Of a DNA stretch of 64,000 nucleotides, positions 7,234 through 14,890 are shown one piece after another. The DNA is from Rhizobium indicum (lineage in GTDB: Bacteria; Pseudomonadota; Alphaproteobacteria; Rhizobiales; Rhizobiaceae), in contig NZ_CP054023.1 of the NCBI RefSeq assembly GCF_005862305.2, positions 393,342 through 457,341 on the forward strand, given 5' to 3'. The translations under genes and the position numbers were made by a program. Every line of letters begins with the position of its first letter. Positions within the stretch are counted from its first letter, which is position 1. The notes below the pieces were generated by a model. It was not told the DNA's origin. It saw nothing but the letters and a program-made list of their open reading frames with translations, and did no database searches.

Positions 7234-7683
7234 TCACTTGCCGTCTTGATGACCCGAGTTATCCTCCTCCCGAGGATACTTTTCTTGAGATCCGAGCGTA
7301 TTGAATCTGTTCCCGACGGCTGAGACGAAGTCATCAAACTTAGGGTTTTCGCGGATCATCTCGACGGTTGTTTTGTGCGAGGAATCGGAACCGTGTGTAG
7401 AGTAGACGACGCCTTCGTTAGGAAACGTGATTTCACCGTCCGATTTCCGGATTTCGTAAAGCCTGACCGTTTCGTCAGTATCGCCGTCTAGCGTCCCGGT
7501 CACTTTGATTTGGCCAGGGTCCCCCTTTTCTCCCTCGTCAACATCGATGTCGAACGTTTTGCCGCTCGGTAGTTCCAGGTCTTTGATTTTTTTGCCCTCG
7601 CTATCTTCGCAAAAGCCGCCAGCGAGATCGTAAATGGAAAAAACTGAGCACTTCCCAACCGTTACTTCAACGAAATAGGTCAT
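7234..7683 (-). CDS. Hypothetical acidic protein, last gene of the YcaO-TfuA operon
   Basis: This 149-residue acidic protein begins MTYFVEVTVGKCSVFSIYDL. It is rich in short beta-type segments in the first 100 residues (LELPSGKTFDIDVDEG, GQIKVTGTLDG) and has a helical-looking then disordered tail. Two cysteines fall early, in GKCS and GFCED. GGAGA five bases before the ATG at 7683 supports this start; an in-frame ATG at 7695 overlaps the stop of the preceding gene (TGATG) and is also possible. No family recognised. As the end gene of an operon encoding peptide-modifying enzymes, it is a candidate substrate or accessory protein (inference). Confidence 0.72.
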   Translation of the reverse strand: MTYFVEVTVGKCSVFSIYDLAGGFCEDSEGKKIKDLELPSGKTFDIDVDEGEKGDPGQIKVTGTLDGDTDETVRLYEIRKSDGEITFPNEGVVYSTHGSDSSHKTTVEMIRENPKFDDFVSAVGNRFNTLGSQEKYPREEDNSGHQDGK

Positions 7684-7694
7684 CACATTCTCCA

Positions 7695-8186
7695 TCAATC
7701 TCGGTTCAAACGACCGTCACGGTGCGCCATCCTCAAGGTGATTGCGTAGGAACTGGGGGATCGTTTGCCCGGTAAATTTGCATCAAGGATGAGTGAACGC
7801 GCATCACCATAGTTTGTGGTAAGTTCGAGCAACGCAGTCGATGCCCGAATACGCCACATTTTGTAACCCAAGCCGTCGAACCCACAACCGACGGCCGGTT
7901 TCGGCGATGCTTTCTTAATAAGGAACACGCGATTTGTATCAAATCGATAGCAGTGACCTTCGAAAGCGTAGCCATAAGCAAGAACAACTGAATACTCTCT
8001 TGACTTGTAGGCGTAAGGAACCTTGTCCTCTCGATACAACTGGAGCCGAACCGCGTTGAGTTGTCCTTCGCCGATGTCGAAGCTCGCGTAATCAAATGTC
8101 TCATTCAATTTCACACCATAAATAATCAGAGCGTCAGCCTCGTAACGATCCGTTGCTGGTGCTGGGACGTCGTCTCTATCTCTCAT
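7695..8186 (-). CDS. Hypothetical protein in the YcaO-TfuA operon
   Basis: This 163-residue soluble protein has no domain I recognise. Visible features are an early ADALIIYGVKLNETFDYASF, a beta-rich core (REYSVVLAYGYAFEGHCYRF), and VGCGFDGLGYKMWRIRAS. GGGAGGC five bases before the ATG at 8186 gives a firm start, 20 bases after the metallopeptidase stop. Its stop overlaps a possible ATG of the next gene, so the two are probably translated together. It could bind or carry the modified product; nothing in the sequence proves this. Confidence 0.72.
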   Translation of the reverse strand: MRDRDDVPAPATDRYEADALIIYGVKLNETFDYASFDIGEGQLNAVRLQLYREDKVPYAYKSREYSVVLAYGYAFEGHCYRFDTNRVFLIKKASPKPAVGCGFDGLGYKMWRIRASTALLELTTNYGDARSLILDANLPGKRSPSSYAITLRMAHRDGRLNRD

Positions 8187-8206
8187 CGATGCCTCCCGAA
8201 AAATTG

Positions 8207-9439
8207 TCAAAGAATTCCACGCCACCTCATGCAATCTTCAAGTTGTTGGAGGTATGCATTGCCACGCTCCCGATAGCTGGCTTCGAGAAAGGCTTCTGCA
8301 GCAGCTGCAAAGGTGATGCTGTCCGGTTCAAGGTAAGCCCATGAGCGCATTACAGCTTCCCCAACGATATCTCTTGCTTCCTCAAGGGCGGCCTTAGCGG
8401 CAAAGTGGCGTAGCTCGTAAGACGACCTGGACGTCCGCATCGCTTCATCCATAAGGGCAGGCGCTAGCTGTTGCCGCAGATCTGAGAAACGTTTTGGATT
8501 GAGATCAGATAGACCGCGTTCGAACAGGAGCGATTGGTAGACCTCAATGAGGCAGTCGAAGAGGGCCGCAGCAAACGGCTTCGATTGGTCGTGAACCTCG
8601 CCGCTAACATCACGCATCTTAAGTGAATTGTTGAACGATCGAAGTTGCTTCTCGTCGCTTAACTCGGCGAATCTGTCCAGTTCATTGTGCAGGAGAAGAT
8701 TCCCCTTAGTTCGACGGAGTAGCCGATCAACTGCCGTGTCGAATTGCAGTAGCCCCAGCAAAGATATGAAATCGGCTATCGATTCATGGTAGGCAAAGAA
8801 ATCGCAGCCGCGACCGTCTCCCTCAAGAATTCCGAGTTCGCTCAGCAAAATAAGGTGGCCGATTTCATGAGCGATCGCGTCAAAGTTCAGGGCAAAATAT
8901 GAAGTCGGCGTTTCTGGCTCGCTCTCGCCCAATTCAAGGAAACCAAATCCGGATTGTGCGTTCTCCCAGTGTGGAATCCGTGGAATAATCTCAAGACGTT
9001 CGACTGTAGGTTCAAAAAACCAGCCTATTGGGTGCCCAACGTAGCTCTCACAAATATCGAGAACACGACGTGCACAGGCAAAGCTGTGTGTCGAAAGGAA
9101 AGCGGGGGAGTCGGGACCGATGTGGTCAAAATGGCCGTCGGGGCCGGGTTCTGCTGGCGGCCTCAAAACCCCCCGATATGGGGGCAGATTCGGCGATGCG
9201 TAAGGGATTTTCGGCTCAATCGGATTTGCGACGTACATCCGGCTGTCCGACGGCCCTGCGAGAATCGGGCCCGCAGACGCTCCGATCCACACCACCTCGG
9301 GCTTTTCATAACCTGGAATAAATGGCGGTTGCGGAAAAATGAGAAATCGGGTTCCCAGTGACGGCTCGAAAGCTGCCCCACCTGCGCCTTCTGGATGTGT
9401 AATCGCATCCAACGTCGCCCCCACCGCTTCATTGCCCAC
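8207..9439 (-). CDS. HEIGH-motif zinc metallopeptidase-like protein
   Basis: This 410-residue protein has the zinc-binding motif HEIGH (H191, E192, H195) and, 24 residues later, HESIADF (E219, D223). That ExxxD spacing is the third-ligand arrangement of thermolysin-type gluzincins. No signal peptide or membrane segment is visible, so it should be cytoplasmic. The C-terminal half is helical and of unknown type. Start is GTG at 9439, 23 bases after the tfuA stop; the ribosome-binding site is weak, so coupling to tfuA translation is likely. In this operon it may cut a leader from a modified precursor (inference); it could also act in regulation or be catalytically inert. Confidence 0.85.
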   Translation of the reverse strand: MGNEAVGATLDAITHPEGAGGAAFEPSLGTRFLIFPQPPFIPGYEKPEVVWIGASAGPILAGPSDSRMYVANPIEPKIPYASPNLPPYRGVLRPPAEPGPDGHFDHIGPDSPAFLSTHSFACARRVLDICESYVGHPIGWFFEPTVERLEIIPRIPHWENAQSGFGFLELGESEPETPTSYFALNFDAIAHEIGHLILLSELGILEGDGRGCDFFAYHESIADFISLLGLLQFDTAVDRLLRRTKGNLLLHNELDRFAELSDEKQLRSFNNSLKMRDVSGEVHDQSKPFAAALFDCLIEVYQSLLFERGLSDLNPKRFSDLRQQLAPALMDEAMRTSRSSYELRHFAAKAALEEARDIVGEAVMRSWAYLEPDSITFAAAAEAFLEASYRERGNAYLQQLEDCMRWRGIL

Positions 9440-9462
9440 ATAAGCGATAAAGTATCATACCA

Positions 9463-10230
9463 CTACAACGCGCCTTTAGACAATACTGCGTCCGACAAAT
9501 TGTAGTAATCCATATCGTACGCGAATGCCTCGGTGAGTTTAAATTCGGGACTACATGGTGGGGCTTCCGTGATGTATTTGTTGCTACTGAGGTATCTGAG
9601 TAAACCGATCGCATCAGCTCTCTTCTGGGCTACGAATCCGTTTGCCAGCCAAGCCTTCAGAGCACCAAGCTGTTCAATAGGCCCGAGACTTACATCGGCG
9701 ACCGACATGAGTTTATGGAGGCTTCTGGTCATGAAGTGAAGGGAACGTGATAGTTCCTCAAGTTGCTGGCGGACTTTTCTCTCTATGATGCCTTCACGCT
9801 CTGCTCTTTTTAAAGTCATCCTGATGTCGAACAGCGCTTCGCCTATCCCCTTGGAGCCCATGTCGGAAGGAGCCATGGGTACCGCGACGTCGGCGTCGTC
9901 GGCGAGAACGTTTCTACGATACCATCTGAAGATCAGCCCGTGCCCGGTCATGCCGAATGGCGCAAGCTCAGCCGCCCGAAGGGCGCCTATGCTTGCCGCA
10001 CCATAGAGCCGGACCCCCTGCGACATCGCCCAGAGGATTTCTTGATGGCGAACCGCTGGTGACTGGGCGAATACTCCGTCGATGAGAGCAATTGTGGATG
10101 GAGCGTATTGAACCACCGCTCGAACAACATCTCCACACCCTGCGGGAGGGAGGTAGCGGGCGTCCATGTGCAGCCGTGCCTCAGCGGCGCTAATGGTTGG
10201 GCCGAGAAAAATGACGACATCACCACGCAA
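9463..10230 (-). CDS. tfuA: TfuA-like protein
   Basis: This is a member of the TfuA family, named for the trifolitoxin locus of Rhizobium leguminosarum bv. trifolii. Family hallmarks are visible: IFLGPTISAAEAR at the start, DARYLPPAGCGD, IALIDGVF, and the central RLYGAASIGALRAAEL...GMTGHG block (about residues 75-105). TfuA partners YcaO enzymes, and in thioviridamide-type clusters and in methanogens the pair is linked to backbone thioamide formation. The TTG at 10230 has GGAG seven bases upstream and is the only in-frame start, overlapping the ycaO end by 11 bases. Confidence 0.93.
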   Translation of the reverse strand: MRGDVVIFLGPTISAAEARLHMDARYLPPAGCGDVVRAVVQYAPSTIALIDGVFAQSPAVRHQEILWAMSQGVRLYGAASIGALRAAELAPFGMTGHGLIFRWYRRNVLADDADVAVPMAPSDMGSKGIGEALFDIRMTLKRAEREGIIERKVRQQLEELSRSLHFMTRSLHKLMSVADVSLGPIEQLGALKAWLANGFVAQKRADAIGLLRYLSSNKYITEAPPCSPEFKLTEAFAYDMDYYNLSDAVLSKGAL

Positions 10231-11371
10231 GATGGAACTCCGGATTGGTTTCTAAGGGGGGAGCAATCACTTTCGCTACATGAAGCGGTATTCGTTCATC
10301 GGAGTGTAGATGGACAAGAATTGCCGCCTGAGCGCCCGCAAGCTGAAGAGCCGTCAATATCCGTCTTAGCGGATCCTCCAGAGGTCCGTTGTTTACGTCT
10401 GTCTGATACGTCCGCTCACCCTTTGCTAACTGGGCCCGCCAACCCGCCAGTTCGGAAGCCCCGGGATAGCTATAGAGATCGGTCCTAACATCCTCTCGGG
10501 CCGCTGAAATGACGCCTAGTCTGGACTGACACGCTTCAAGAAGAGCGCTGGCCAAAGCATTATCGTGAGTGAAGGCACATCCAAATCCTTCAGCGGGCAA
10601 CGGAGCAAACGGCGCTTGCTCCCCATTCTCCATGATATGAACCCAGTAGACGGGGAACTCATGCGCCGTTGGAATCCGCCAAATGCCAACCCCAAAGCCC
10701 GCAGCACGCACCTTGATCACGATTTCGCCGGAAAGCCCTGCGGTAACGGATTGAGTGTTTATTTGGAAACGGTCAAAGAAATGCGGAGTTTCCAGTGCCG
10801 AACAGCGGGCTTGACGCTCCAAAATCTCGAAGCAGGCGTGGAGGACCGCGTGTTGGACGCTCGCGCTGGCCGCAAGGCCCGATGTATCGCGCGGAACCCA
10901 CTTTGGGTGAGGGGATGGTATCGTGTAGGCGGTATCCACCAGCCCTAACGGAACTGAGGTTTTCAGGCCAGAGAACAGATCGACCCCATCTATCCAAGTC
11001 AGCGTCTCGGCGGTGTCTCTGACGCCAAGATGTGACCAGAGCCCTTGTTCTTTGCTTTCGCGAAAGGGCGCCGTGAATATCGAGTCAGGGGCGATCCGTT
11101 CTGAAGCCCAACCTTCAAGGGACTCCATTAACGCTGATATTGCGGCCAAGGGAAAAGTCATGCCTTTACCTTGGCTTACCGTCACCGACAAAGATTGGGG
11201 GCGAACTACCTGAACGACTGGGATTCCGATCCAGTCCAGATTGGTAACCGAGCCCAACCTTGTGATGCCAAATTCGTTCTTCCGCGCCAAAATCCTCTTC
11301 GCTGTCTGCCAAGGATCGGGCAGCGTTCGAAGGTGAGCATCAAAGATGATATTCAGCAGCCCTTCGTCCAG
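10220..11371 (-). CDS. YcaO-domain cyclodehydratase/thioamidation enzyme, probable CTG start
   Basis: YcaO enzymes use ATP to phosphorylate peptide backbone amides, giving azolines, thioamides or amidines. The ATP-binding motifs are present: SQGKG, SALMESLE (the SxxxExxE type), a second ExxE block (HACFEILERQ) and EACQSRLG near residue 290. The family N-terminus RTLPxxxT...FGITR is found only if the frame is extended past the TTG at 11290. The upstream codons contain no ATG, GTG or TTG, but AGGAGG at 11378-11383 is followed after six bases by CTG (11369-11371), which I take as the start (383 residues). It lies 20 bases after the regulator's stop and overlaps tfuA by 11 bases. Confidence 0.92.
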   Translation of the reverse strand: MDEGLLNIIFDAHLRTLPDPWQTAKRILARKNEFGITRLGSVTNLDWIGIPVVQVVRPQSLSVTVSQGKGMTFPLAAISALMESLEGWASERIAPDSIFTAPFRESKEQGLWSHLGVRDTAETLTWIDGVDLFSGLKTSVPLGLVDTAYTIPSPHPKWVPRDTSGLAASASVQHAVLHACFEILERQARCSALETPHFFDRFQINTQSVTAGLSGEIVIKVRAAGFGVGIWRIPTAHEFPVYWVHIMENGEQAPFAPLPAEGFGCAFTHDNALASALLEACQSRLGVISAAREDVRTDLYSYPGASELAGWRAQLAKGERTYQTDVNNGPLEDPLRRILTALQLAGAQAAILVHLHSDERIPLHVAKVIAPPLETNPEFHLAW

Positions 11372-11391
11372 TTCCTGCCTCCTCTACTCGA

Positions 11392-14376
11392 TCATCCTGG
11401 AAAAACGTCCAACTCGCGTCTCGCTCTGTTCGCAAGCCAAGCGGCTTTTTGCCCCTCGGCAATTCGGACTGCGTTTGCCAGGTCTTTTTTGACAGACGAC
11501 GGTTGTTTGCTTAAGGCACGCCTCAGTTTCGCGCTGCGCCTGTATAACTCGGGGAGCCAAAACAATTGGCCGCTGTTACGTCCGACATCGATTGCATATT
11601 GCAAGGTTACGAGCGCCTCATCATTTCGGCCAAGCCTTTGGAGGACCTGTGCATGCATGTCGCTGTGCATCGAGAAATTGTCATCGGTCCCCAATTGTTG
11701 CTGAAGCTGAAGGGCATCTTCAAAGCGCTTTCCTCCGTTTCCGTCGGCGGACGTCATCATTTCCGCCCACCCGCAGTACATGTTGGCCCTCGCTTCGCTC
11801 GCTGCCAGCCCGTGTTTTTCAGCCAGCGACAGCATCTTCTCCCCTAAAGCGTAGACGTCATCGTACCTTCCTTGGCACCGGCGAAGTACGATCGCGTAGT
11901 AAAGTCCGTGGACCATACTCCCAACGTGTTCGGTGGAGTTAGCCCAATCTAAGCATGCTTGGATCGCCGATTCACTTGCGCCAATCTCGTTGAGAAGCAG
12001 GTAGGAGAGAGCACTCTCGCCCAACCCACATACCTTGGCGTCGTGTCCGCCGAAAAAGGCGCGGTTTCGAACTGCTCTGTAAGAATCATATAACCCAAGG
12101 CCTTTCGCGACGCAGTCGAGACAGAAGCCGTGCTCACCCGCATGAAAGCTGGTGGCCCACCCGCAGTGATACGACTGAAGCCTTGTTTCCTGGTCCTCGA
12201 CGGATTGCATGTCTTCAACAAGGATTCGTGCGCGAGATTGTTGAGTCTGGATATTCGGCGCTGTGAACCACCATCCCCAATACAAAGGGAAATGCCTCTC
12301 CCGAACGGCAGAAGGTTGTTTTCGCAAGAGCTGTGTCGCTCTCGAATAGATCCGTCGCGCAACTTCGGAGCCTTCCCCTTCAAGCGCAGTTGCAACGACT
12401 CCTTGCAGCTTGAGCAGGTTCAAGATGAGGTCAGTGCGATCGGCTTCCCGCGAAGATATGTTACTGATCGCCTCGGCGCACAGTGTGAGGGAAACGTTGG
12501 CCTCATGCATTGCGGATCGAAGGACGCTGGCCTCCGCCGCTGCCGATGCGAACCTGGCGGCAGCAACGTGTAAGCCAGCTTCGGCGCACTGCCAGGCAGC
12601 TATAGCTGCAGGCAAACTCGGGGTCCGCTCCTGAATCAGAAAGTCTGCAATCCGCCGGTGTATTCGTCGTCGATCGCTCTTAAGGAGACTTCCGTACGTA
12701 GCTTCTTGCATGAGAACATGGCGAAACTGATAGGTGCGGGGAGCCGTTGGCAACGGTTCAATGATGCCTTGAGAAAGCAGTCGCTCGATGTGGACGTCAA
12801 CGGCTCGGCGGCTTGTTTCCTCAAGAAGATAGGTGAGCAGGGAGATGCTGAATTCACGACCTATGACGCTAGCAAATTGGGCAACCTTTCGAGCATCGCC
12901 GGTTGACGCCAACCTTGCGGAGAGCAGATCGTTTAGCGAAGTAACGCCGCCGTCGAGGAGCAACCCTTTCCATTCCGAAGCAACTTTCCCAAGTGCGTGC
13001 CGTCCCCGGAAAAACTCGGCCAACTCTTCGGCGTAGAGTGGCATCCCATCGCATTGGTCTAGAATGAAATCAGACAAACCTGGAGGGGGACGTTCACCCC
13101 AGATGGATGCCACCAGATCCCGGACCGCAGTCGGAGCCAAGCCAGTGAGTTCTATTTCGGTTGTGGCCGCCAACGATCTCCTTATCCGTGAGGTTTGCAA
13201 TATTAGGACCGGGAGCTTGTGAGCCAACGAACCAAGGCGATCCATCAACTCGACCGTCATCCCATCGGCCCAATGGACGTCCTCGAATACGAGGAGCGTA
13301 GGGATAAGGTTGGCATTGCACGTCAGCAGATGAGCGGCGGCTTCGATTACCTCCTGTCGAAACGCCCGACCAGATAGATCTGTCGTACGGATCTGGCCGG
13401 GGTTGCTTGATTTTTGCTCGGCTGTGAACGAAAGGATCGTGGTGGCGGAAGCTTCACTTACCTCTCTCTTGGTTGTTTGGAGAGCCTTCAAAAAAGCTTT
13501 CGCGTCTCCCTCCCTCAGAGTGGAAGTTCCCACGACGGCCTCAAGAAAGGCAACAAACGAGTGCAACGGTTGGCTTTCCAGGCGTCTATTGCATTGAAAC
13601 ACCACACTATCGTGCTGAGTCTTCGCCAATCGATCCGCGAATTCCCGGATAAGCTTCGACTTGCCTATGCCGGCTTCGCCGACTAGCGCTATCGCGCTTC
13701 CGTTACCCACGCAGGCCGCTTCCCAAGCTTTCGAGAGTGCCGTCAGTTCCTTTTCCCGGCCCCTAATGGGTCTGTTTCGGTCTTGAGGCAGCGCTCCTAC
13801 AGATGACTCCTCCAATCGGCCGTTGGGTTGCCAAAGACCAGTCGGTTCGTCAAAACCTTTGAGTTTGGCTTCTCTCAACAATCCGTATCGAAATTTACTG
13901 CGCGTCAGCTGATAAGTTGACTCGGCGACGAGCACCGAATTCGGATCGGCCTCTGCCTGCAGGCGGGCGGCCAGAATTGGCGCCGTTCCTATAATTTCAT
14001 TGCCTTCAGAGGAAAACACGACGAGGCTCGTTGCGACGCCGACGCGCAACTTGAATGCCAGTCGGGACTTCGCTTTAGATTTGGCGACAAGCTCAATCAG
14101 TTCCAGCGACGACTGAACCGCGCTTTCTGCGGCATCTTCGGCTTGTTCGGGATATCCAAAAAAGCAGCAGCCACCGTCTCCAAGGCGCTGATGAAGAAAG
14201 CCGCCGTGCCTTTTTATGATCGTTTCAGCGTTTTGATGCAGAGCGGAAACGGAACGGAAAAACTGTTCCGGCTCGCTCTTCAGCAGAAGCTCTGTCGATC
14301 CAACTATATCGTAAAATAGGGCAGTTACCTGCCGTCGCTCGCCTGAGAACCGAAATCGCGCGTCGAGGGTCTTCAT
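11392..14376 (-). CDS. Cyclase-like/AAA ATPase/TPR signalling protein
   Basis: This 994-residue protein has three parts. Residues 10-185 are a class III nucleotide cyclase-type domain (RRQVTALFYDIVGST; HQRLGDGG). Residues 200-480 are an AAA/STAND-type ATPase with Walker A LVGEAGIGKSK (about 232-242) and Walker B TLLVFEDVHWAD (about 360-371). The rest is TPR-like helical repeats. The usual catalytic Asn of the cyclase (VNxAARL) is Ile here (PILAARL), while the Arg remains, so cAMP synthesis is doubtful. It is the first gene of the operon and probably senses a signal or the product. I chose ATG 14376; a TTG at 14409 is possible. Neither has a clear ribosome-binding site. Confidence 0.9.
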   Translation of the reverse strand: MKTLDARFRFSGERRQVTALFYDIVGSTELLLKSEPEQFFRSVSALHQNAETIIKRHGGFLHQRLGDGGCCFFGYPEQAEDAAESAVQSSLELIELVAKSKAKSRLAFKLRVGVATSLVVFSSEGNEIIGTAPILAARLQAEADPNSVLVAESTYQLTRSKFRYGLLREAKLKGFDEPTGLWQPNGRLEESSVGALPQDRNRPIRGREKELTALSKAWEAACVGNGSAIALVGEAGIGKSKLIREFADRLAKTQHDSVVFQCNRRLESQPLHSFVAFLEAVVGTSTLREGDAKAFLKALQTTKREVSEASATTILSFTAEQKSSNPGQIRTTDLSGRAFRQEVIEAAAHLLTCNANLIPTLLVFEDVHWADGMTVELMDRLGSLAHKLPVLILQTSRIRRSLAATTEIELTGLAPTAVRDLVASIWGERPPPGLSDFILDQCDGMPLYAEELAEFFRGRHALGKVASEWKGLLLDGGVTSLNDLLSARLASTGDARKVAQFASVIGREFSISLLTYLLEETSRRAVDVHIERLLSQGIIEPLPTAPRTYQFRHVLMQEATYGSLLKSDRRRIHRRIADFLIQERTPSLPAAIAAWQCAEAGLHVAAARFASAAAEASVLRSAMHEANVSLTLCAEAISNISSREADRTDLILNLLKLQGVVATALEGEGSEVARRIYSRATQLLRKQPSAVRERHFPLYWGWWFTAPNIQTQQSRARILVEDMQSVEDQETRLQSYHCGWATSFHAGEHGFCLDCVAKGLGLYDSYRAVRNRAFFGGHDAKVCGLGESALSYLLLNEIGASESAIQACLDWANSTEHVGSMVHGLYYAIVLRRCQGRYDDVYALGEKMLSLAEKHGLAASEARANMYCGWAEMMTSADGNGGKRFEDALQLQQQLGTDDNFSMHSDMHAQVLQRLGRNDEALVTLQYAIDVGRNSGQLFWLPELYRRSAKLRRALSKQPSSVKKDLANAVRIAEGQKAAWLANRARRELDVFPG

Positions 14377-14477: not shown

Positions 14478-14690
14478 TGAACCGCGCCGGGTTTGCCGGA
14501 GGCTCCAACAAAGTGGAGCCGATATGGGCAAGACAACAAACAAGTTTTCCCTGAAGTCCGTGACCGGGCCATCCGCATGGTGTTGGATCACGAAGCCGAG
14601 CGTCCCTCGCGGGGGGCTGCCGTTTCATCTATCGCGGCCAAGATTGGCTGCTCGCCAGCCACGCTGTACGAATGGAATTCGATTCCGGGC
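14478..14690 (+). pseudogene. IS3-family element relic: left end and broken orfA
   Basis: The sequence starts TGAACCGCGCCGGGTTTG at 14478, which resembles the left terminal repeat of rhizobial IS3-family elements. It is followed by an ATG at 14524 giving MGKTTNKFS. After one missing base in the C run near 14550, the next frame continues the OrfA pattern: [17 protein letters not shown], then [24 protein letters not shown]. The match stops near 14690, and the rest of orfA and all of orfB are gone. It lies upstream of the YcaO operon's first gene. Confidence 0.82.
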
Positions 14691-14890
14691 CCACAGGTTG
14701 TCCTCGAGGCCCTTGTACGAGCGGAATGCCTGGCGCTCGAACTTGCTCGGTCGATCGCAGAGGGGTGTCATATCCCGGTTGCTCGTCCGCCAGGTTTGAC
14801 GTCGATGACCCTCCGCCCGAAGCGCGGTGTTGCGCGTGGAACGAATTGCGGCGTCGGGACGTTTGGTAGCGCGAGTTAGAGGAGAATATC

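Follow-up and report, generated by a model that had tools for sequence, protein, structure and literature searches.

A YcaO–TfuA module with its own peptidase and a candidate folded-leader precursor in Rhizobium

Among described TfuA–YcaO systems, the thiovarsolins of Actinobacteria are made from a repeat-containing precursor, VarA, and their cluster holds no specific protease according to its authors, as far as the consulted part of that report goes (PMC6511847). In methanogens, the ycaO and tfuA genes tied to thioglycine in McrA share one locus (consulted part of PMC5589413), and TfuA gene cluster families with TfuA–YcaO pairs are described for Rhizobium and Agrobacterium (Malit 2021; consulted part of PMC8120280).

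The 64,000-nucleotide stretch of Rhizobium indicum DNA analysed here (the window) carries such a pair within an operon which, we consider reasonably probable, converts the C-terminal tail of a small operon-encoded protein, s163, into a ribosomally synthesised and post-translationally modified peptide (RiPP).

Gene calls and protein families

All six ORFs were found on the minus strand, where the sequence-only reading had placed them:

7234..7683, minus strand: s149, a small accessory protein whose family diverges rapidly (family ORF in clade-I genus loci)
7695..8186, minus strand: s163, the candidate precursor protein, with an all-beta leader domain and a C-terminal tail (AF2 model; in divergent loci, homologous domains followed by tandem-repeat tails)
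7698..7772, minus strand: candidate core, s163 residues 139-163 (PGKRSPSSYAITLRMAHRDGRLNRD; low pLDDT at 145-163, tail identity)
8207..9439, minus strand: HExxH zincin-type peptidase, likely GTG start 9424 (invariant motif residues)
9463..10230, minus strand: TfuA, probable sulfur-delivery partner of YcaO (PF07812, E 4e-40; NF033432, E 2e-53)
10220..11371, minus strand: YcaO amide-activating enzyme, 383 aa from a CTG start (PF02624, E 1e-40)
11369..11371, minus strand: YcaO CTG start codon (AGGAGG at 11383-11378; sequence reading and ATG/GTG in relatives)
11392..14376, minus strand: sensor/regulator (Pfam PF00211 and PF13191; TIGR03903-like without the kinase part)

The YcaO ORF as listed, from TTG 11290, was rejected as truncated. 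The start is most likely the AGGAGG-preceded CTG at 11371, which fits the starts of relatives (ATG at this position in the close relative L006, GTG in L007), and an in-frame TAG upstream falls outside the gene. Because YcaO starts there, the intergenic gaps are small, and the tight spacing earlier attributed to the six genes holds. For the peptidase, GTG 9424 is the probable start, since the proteins of relatives begin there.

The Pfam matches bear out the YcaO and TfuA identities. Against NCBIfam, YcaO matched the generic domain TIGR00702 (E 2e-33), the McrA-thioamidation model TIGR03266 (E 6e-32) and the SagD type (E 7e-16; 58 bits against a cutoff of 219), while TfuA reached 181 bits on NF033432 against a cutoff of 235. 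The best-scoring models are thus the McrA-thioamidation ones for TfuA, and for YcaO after the generic domain model; they are the closest curated models among those matched. Glu 83, 86, 182 and 185 of YcaO are kept in 95/95 aligned rows, duplicates included, suggesting an intact ATP site, and ycaO and tfuA are adjacent as in TfuA–YcaO RiPP pathways. As to the proteins that mark azol(in)e-forming TOMM clusters, no E1-like/ocin-ThiF (C) protein or flavin dehydrogenase was conserved in 46 hand-picked loci (ORFs of at least 110 aa). Curated models and ATP-site residues agree in pointing to the YcaO–TfuA chemistry that had been expected, of which a thioamide would be the product.

The sensor matched guanylate cyclase (PF00211, E 7e-17) and AAA_16 (PF13191, E 4e-18) and appears to combine a class III cyclase domain, a STAND/AAA ATPase with intact Walker A and a long C-terminal region; its cyclase base-recognition position is Gln. 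The cyclase and AAA parts of its earlier description are therefore retained, but its TPR part found no Pfam TPR match. Similarity to TIGR03903 (TOMM kinase/cyclase) extends over profile positions 282-1264 at 316.9 bits, under the cutoff of 705.75; the N-terminal kinase of that fusion is absent. Pycsar-cyclase matches are weak (best E 1e-10).

The peptidase of the window matched neither Pfam nor NCBIfam at E 1. Nevertheless, H191, E192, H195, E219, D223 and H283 are invariant in 96/96 loci (91 distinct sequences), and the combination of HExxH, ExxxD and a later His is what we take to be the gluzincin signature, in a thermolysin-type arrangement; the gluzincin-type assignment already proposed is thereby strengthened, on motif grounds. 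Three of four distant members scanned weakly matched M4, M36 or M2 at the HExxH region, below cutoffs, and the fourth matched M12B; among 18 members, M36 was matched once, at E 0.37, and none reached a curated cutoff. These same data bear on whether the protein could be an HExxH oxidase dependent on alpha-ketoglutarate, acting on the tail by hydroxylation or oxidative cleavage. A RiPP enzyme of this kind was earlier annotated as a metallopeptidase (consulted part of PMC12636437), and the lack of a Pfam or NCBIfam match would suit an oxidase. We consider it very unlikely, given the invariant zincin residues, the peptidase-family matches of distant members and, among 18 members, the absence of hits to any NCBIfam model for HExxH oxidases, provided that the library includes one.

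Linkage and distribution of the module

Sensor ATPase, YcaO, TfuA, peptidase and s163 were all present in 80/80 loci selected through the peptidase, namely the best 80 of its 233 relatives (phmmer, E 1e-5); this figure tests the path from the peptidase to the other genes, and the converse was tested within the genus only. Gene order is identical in 78/80 loci and also in L034, where the true sensor lies upstream beside a weak second sensor match; in L078 the peptidase is inverted. The five genes recurred in 46/46 representative loci, selected by hand out of the 80 and compared for ORFs of at least 110 aa. Leaving out frames read on the opposite strand of these genes, no other family in these 46 loci came near the five in frequency (the next reached 16/46), and no transporter or immunity gene was conserved. 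Since 80/80 loci hold the five genes, the grouping in the window is not a chance one, and this linkage argues for the single functional operon that had been proposed.

The sequence-only reading had proposed a neighbourhood survey of whether the six genes recur together, and the survey gives five. An s149-family ORF was found in 22/22 clade-I genus loci, the window's own counted, and in 0/8 second-clade loci examined; at the positions that align, these relatives share 20-35% identity with the s149 of the window, which is the background level. On this comparison, s149 is a fast-diverging accessory limited to one clade. The module is five genes; the sixth is an accessory of that clade.

Within the genus, s163 and YcaO of the present subtype co-occur in the same 44 of 148 genomes, 22 of these loci forming a second clade. 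The subtype threshold (E < 1e-36) was chosen after a gap in scores was seen, and six YcaO matches between 1e-25 and 1e-28 were assigned to other subtypes. The two genes lie within about 3.5 kb of each other in 43/44 genomes; in G010 about 537 kb of a single contig separates them, as would be the case if a circular replicon had been opened there. A chance grouping was to be suspected, according to the earlier reading, if YcaO–TfuA occurred without the other genes. Two such pairs do occur in the window's own genome, but they are of other subtypes, the present one being accompanied by s163 in 44/44 genomes. Five of ten further regions (L137, L139-L142, of which L137, L139 and L140 end at contig edges) are weak peptidase matches in which no YcaO, TfuA or s163 was detected; distant HExxH homologues therefore occur apart from the module.

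The module is patchily distributed and also occurs on plasmids (73 plasmid records), R. johnstonii 3841 having it on pRL11, with RL_RS31025 as its s163. This patchiness, together with a STAND-type ATPase bearing a cyclase domain, its weak Pycsar-cyclase matches and an s149 at background identity, would suit a conflict or defence module in which the STAND/cyclase protein would detect infection or a competitor, a toxic or signalling tail would be released from s163 by the zincin, and s149 would confer immunity or specificity. Yet YcaO, TfuA, peptidase and s163 had no PADLOC match at E 0.1, the only PADLOC match of s149 is weak (E 0.017), and s149 is absent from other clades. We regard a defence role as quite unlikely; it also overlaps with our favoured reading, since under either one the tail could become a modified peptide.

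The s163 tail as candidate core

Neither s163 nor s149 matched Pfam at E 1, and NHLP/Nif11 leader models matched none of 49 s163 members at E 0.1. The s163 domain is modelled by AF2, with confidence, as all-beta, with a GroES-like or an Ig-like fold as candidates, and tail residues 145-163 have pLDDT < 50, possibly an effect of shallow alignments (49 and 31 sequences). Amino-acid identity is 0.67 in residues 134-163 versus 0.48 in residues 1-120, with third-position identity of 0.37 in both: the tail is predicted to be disordered, yet appears more conserved than the folded domain. RiPP cores are mostly less conserved than their leaders. The Rhizobium tail shows the opposite pattern, which would fit a conserved docking or signal peptide equally well. 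In the second clade (8 loci examined of 22) the tail is likewise single but of another type, ..SPxAY..AP[QMV]R..

More distant relatives are informative in this respect. Of 16 module loci fetched, five (L138, L190, L192-L194) were already in the near set, and the other 11, all alphaproteobacterial and none among the 80 near loci, form a divergent set, with the sensor absent or weakly matched in L134, L135, L189 and L191. The gene following the peptidase is complete in nine of the 11 (L185 and L188 end inside it), and in 8/9 it ends in tandem peptides, with the units VSGAR, RAVMAS, RAMMQS, GQMVGA, RGDMAA, GQNV and MNVG; the L135 homologue has no repeat. Repeat detection gave 0/450 positives on shuffled sequences, and the sole positive of 47 control enzyme ORFs was a run of X. 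The repeats are conserved as peptides while their codons have diverged: amino-acid and third-position identities are 1.00 and 0.40 in L134, 0.96 and 0.25 in L191, and third-position identity is 0.40-0.67 in the other six arrays. The s163 and divergent domains are homologous (hhalign probability 98.2, E 4e-14), the alignment stopping near the tail start. For the L187 precursor, the match to the profile of s163 is marginal, and the link runs through L133 (BLAST E 4e-27). L136 holds TfuA, peptidase and a repeat precursor with a weak domain match (E 0.0018); YcaO was not detected in its 19 kb.

VSGAR-type proteins number 78, of which 76 have at least three units. The VSGAR query matched 23 genomes, most at E 1e-3 to 1e-6 and mainly on the repeat itself; the module was present in G850, G805, G799 and G939, the weak matches that were followed. 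A pentapeptide-repeat solenoid was rejected for these tails: PF00805 scored 17.2 bits, below the cutoff of 20.2, the tail is predicted to be disordered (pLDDT 37-46) with no strands, and other tails have periods of 4 and 6. One of the 78 relatives, P0184, has a precomputed PF00805 label.

The swapped tails also bear on another role for s163, that of an adaptor whose tail docks the peptidase or the YcaO–TfuA complex, which would modify an external protein, as happens with McrA or ribosomal protein uL16. YcaO-type thioamidation of large proteins is known (consulted parts of PMC5589413 and PMC13063428), and both enzymes score well on models for McrA modification; the strong conservation of the Rhizobium tail is what would be expected of a docking peptide, and a transporter is conserved nowhere in the 46 hand-picked loci (ORFs of at least 110 aa). 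However, in relatives the tail gives way to unrelated units of 4-6 residues, repeated about 4 to 12 times, with the enzymes still conserved, and a docking peptide needs neither exchange nor repetition; we therefore hold the adaptor to be unlikely. The proposal that one of the two small proteins is the substrate is thus sharpened to the 163-aa s163, which, judged on sequence anatomy, would be a precursor encoded within the operon and composed of a leader and a core, and likely the substrate through its C-terminal tail. The modification site cannot be named, because the various core types do not share a single residue.

From gene linkage, tail anatomy and catalytic residues, we infer the following chemistry and activity for the peptide pathway. 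The beta-domain of s163 would serve as a large folded leader and its flexible tail as the core, single-copy in Rhizobium and tandem in divergent relatives. YcaO, with ATP, would activate a backbone amide of the tail, and TfuA would supply sulfide to give a thioamide (or another amide modification). The HExxH zincin may then cleave the tail off the domain or between repeats. The cyclase/STAND protein could detect a signal and control expression or assembly, and s149 could play an auxiliary part limited to its clade, perhaps in immunity or as a partner protein. An orphan YcaO–TfuA pair hereby gains a hypothesis, set in a culturable Rhizobium host, that names its substrate (the s163 tail), the enzymes of modification, a protease and a sensor. 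Moreover, cores that are exchanged and repeated while the leader stays related offer a natural series for testing what TfuA–YcaO accepts.

The precursors are mostly of 150-300 aa and, where names were seen, are called hypothetical or pentapeptide-repeat proteins; at this size and so annotated, they would tend to be missed by mining of short precursor ORFs.

Comparison with described systems

The likeness to thiovarsolin lies in YcaO and TfuA acting on a precursor with a repeatable core and in a non-repeating relative within the same family (consulted part of PMC6511847). In contrast to that system, a peptidase is present in every locus seen here, the N-terminal part of the precursor is a folded beta domain and the sensor is new; ATP-grasp, amidinotransferase and heme-oxygenase-like genes are not conserved with the module (46 hand-picked loci, ORFs of at least 110 aa). 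The McrA system modifies a large catalytic subunit, unlike the small dedicated, operon-encoded protein proposed here.

The sensor recalls the NHLP-Burk TOMM clusters (TIGR03795, large kinase), which we take to be linked to TIGR03903, the model matched in the window from position 282 onward; their leader is nitrile-hydratase-like and their enzyme a cyclodehydratase fusion, whereas the sensor of the window has no kinase part and stays under the cutoff. The present loci may be among the clusters listed by Malit 2021, in the consulted text of which zincins, cyclase/STAND proteins and folded-domain precursors go unmentioned and the word ‘cyclase’ occurs 0 times (PMC8120280).

We tentatively suggest, with rather less confidence than for the operon itself, an unrecognised class of thioamidated, protein-tethered peptides in Alphaproteobacteria, which would combine a beta-domain leader, exchangeable cores (single, or 4-6-residue units repeated in tandem about 4-12 times), YcaO–TfuA with its own zincin and, in most loci, a cyclase/STAND sensor. 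Its products would not require an exporter of their own and may be active within or between bacteria of soil and sea. By its leader domain, dedicated peptidase and sensor, the module appears to stand apart from known TfuA–YcaO RiPPs, within the same RiPP kind.

The operon and its conserved features

The six minus-strand open reading frames (ORFs) claimed by the sequence-only reading were all found on inspection of the locus. The genome comprises six contigs totalling 7.5 Mb, and the contig that bears the locus is 457 kb long:

7234..14376, minus strand: the six-gene operon, encoding a cyclase-domain and AAA protein (the sensor), YcaO, TfuA, an HExxH peptidase, a 163-aa protein (s163) and a 149-aa protein (s149)
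14376-11392, minus strand: the sensor gene
14493-14879, beside the sensor start: an ORF resembling by eye an IS3-type transposase fragment, so that the remnant of an insertion sequence may border the operon

The sensor, YcaO and TfuA of the window are recognised by Pfam and NCBIfam; the peptidase, s163 and s149 have no match in either at E 1, and the operon's last three genes are labelled hypothetical in the R. johnstonii 3841 plasmid record. The YcaO start is most likely a CTG behind AGGAGG, at the point where relatives carry ATG or GTG; the gene does not include the in-frame TAG further upstream. The ATP-site glutamates of YcaO are kept in 95 of 95 rows, and the HExxH, ExxxD and distal His of the peptidase in 96 of 96 loci (91 distinct). 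Most sensor relatives have the Walker A and GDGG motifs. However, the cyclase-domain position of the base-recognising Lys is occupied by Gln in the window sensor and is variable in relatives (loci L004-L083). The protein may therefore bind rather than make cyclic nucleotide, and so may act in sensing instead of as an active cyclase.

Recurrence of the gene set

A five-gene pathway comprising sensor, YcaO, TfuA, peptidase and s163 (the module) is real and recurrent. A peptidase profile made from the window protein and 17 others, searched against genome contigs, gave 233 relatives, the best 80 of which were retained (the near set). The other four module genes are encoded in 80/80 of these loci (phmmer E 1e-5), in the same order in 78/80 by script and also in L034 on inspection; L078, unlike the other near-set loci, has an inverted peptidase. 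When ORFs of at least 110 aa within about 10 kb were compared among 46 representative loci picked by hand, each module family occurred in 46/46 and the next family in 16/46, opposite-strand frames of the same genes being set aside. In the converse test, 44 of 148 genus genomes had s163, and the same 44 had YcaO of the module subtype (E < 1e-36, a threshold chosen after a gap in scores was visible); six further YcaO matches, weaker at E 1e-25 to 1e-28, were assigned to other subtypes.

The window genome has two more YcaO-TfuA loci that lack the peptidase, s163 and the sensor, namely L084 (G000:C1:3888000-3903500) and L085 (G000:C3:229000-244000). To the eye, large ORFs nearby resemble BTAD/TPR-type regulators. 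In L084, YcaO is preceded by a short ORF that could be the precursor of that locus. At class level, the peptidase profile matches 12 of 289 genomes, seven strongly (E < 1e-80); in the six neighbourhoods inspected of these seven (window included), TfuA and an s163-like gene are present in 6/6 and YcaO in 5/6. Among 398 genomes sampled across the phylum, 7 match at E 1e-30, all from the window's class. Locus L136 (G380:C1) has TfuA, peptidase and an MNVG-repeat precursor, with no YcaO detectable in 19 kb; its YcaO is either lost or distant.

The proposed six-gene grouping holds for five genes, s149 being the exception. An s149-family ORF (96-149 aa) is present in 22/22 genus loci of the window's s163 clade (window included) and in 0/8 loci fetched from the second clade, of 22 second-clade genomes found. 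Among 19 comparable near-set proteins, the median pairwise identity of s149 is 27% (shuffled control, 25.6%), against 72% for the peptidase. N-terminal patterns that can be aligned, together with clustering at E 0.01, suggest one fast-diverging family, which may serve as immunity protein, partner or second substrate. Five Roseibium/Labrenzia loci (L058-L061, L063) carry a different family of approximately 135 aa downstream of s163, to which phmmer finds no link from s149, suggesting that this accessory slot is reused.

Domain and tail of the candidate precursor

A structure model of s163 based on 49 sequences shows an ordered all-beta domain and, behind it, a stretch (residues 145-163) where pLDDT is < 50. 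Despite this predicted disorder, the tail is more conserved than the domain: across 300 pairs from 25 sequences, amino-acid identity is 0.67 for residues 134-163 versus 0.48 for residues 1-120, with third-position identity equal at 0.37. The window tail is PGKRSPSSYAITLRMAHRDGRLNRD. In a second Rhizobium/Sinorhizobium clade (L055, L057, L066, L070, L072, L075, L076, L108-L115), s163 ends in another single tail, which reads SPxAY... and has APQR, APMR or APVR close to its terminus, in place of AHRxGRL; this is possibly another core type.

Eleven module loci lie outside the 80 (the divergent set). In nine of them the peptidase is followed by a complete ORF, which ends in a tandem array in eight; that of L135 has no repeat.

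Tandem repeats in the ORF after the peptidase, by divergent locus
L133: RAVMAS, 12 units
L134: VSGAR, about 8 units
L191: VSGAR, 10 units
L136: MNVG, 4 units
L184: RGDMAA type, 4-5 units
L186: GQMVGA, 5 units
L187: RAMMQS, 10 units
L189: GQNV, 5 units

Tandem tails were found in 0/81 of the near set and 0/450 shuffled sequences, and the sole positive among 47 control enzyme ORFs is a masked sequence. Amino-acid versus third-position identity between repeats is 1.00 versus 0.40 in L134, 0.96 versus 0.25 in L191 and 0.81-1.00 versus 0.40-0.67 in the six other arrays. The arrays thus keep the peptide while codons drift, a pattern that speaks for selection at the peptide level and against recent slippage of the DNA.

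In 8/9 divergent ORFs, the s163 profile or the VSGAR profile matches the domain before the tail (weakest L136, E 0.0018); the L187 precursor matches marginally, yet aligns to L133 (BLAST E 4e-27). A search with the L134 protein gave 78 proteins, 76 with at least three VSGAR units. By hhalign, the domain of these proteins and the s163 domain are homologous (probability 98.2, E 4e-14), and their tail is predicted by a structure model to be disordered rather than a solenoid. The L133 and L187 precursors have an additional, partly acidic segment between beta domain and repeats. Judged from sequence, a related domain bearing single or multiple exchangeable C-terminal peptides beside YcaO-TfuA is a leader-plus-core anatomy.

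Predicted chemistry and relation to known pathways

This anatomy has good support; the module's chemistry and its function are predictions. The McrA-thioamidation model gives the best score for the window TfuA, and for YcaO the best after the generic domain model. TfuA is described as obtaining sulfur from thiocarboxylated ThiS, which it hydrolyses, and as increasing the affinity with which YcaO binds its substrate (PMC8939145). From these scores and this role, a backbone thioamide is expected in the s163 tail, as in thiovarsolin: YcaO-TfuA would place it there, and the zincin would free the product from the precursor. No residue common to all core types was found, so no modification site is named. 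Alternatively, the HExxH protein could be an alpha-ketoglutarate oxidase and not a peptidase, a rival that we keep, as HExxH proteins of RiPP clusters can be such oxidases according to one report (PMC12636437).

Within the open PMC literature, neither this gene set nor this precursor type was found. The consulted portion of a RiPP leader protease review lists metalloprotease families M1, M16, M50, M61 and M103, with M79 in quorum sensing, and there the words TfuA, thermolysin and gluzincin are absent (PMC10885120). TfuA clusters were reported in Rhizobium by Malit 2021, in whose abstract and consulted sections no zincin, cyclase or folded-domain precursor was found (PMC8120280). In thiovarsolin, a repeat precursor is likewise acted on by YcaO and TfuA, but the cluster is without a specific protease (PMC6511847), whereas the module has a zincin in every locus seen, as the design of the search entails. 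The module is best classed as a variant among TfuA-YcaO RiPP pathways, with a newly identified candidate precursor.
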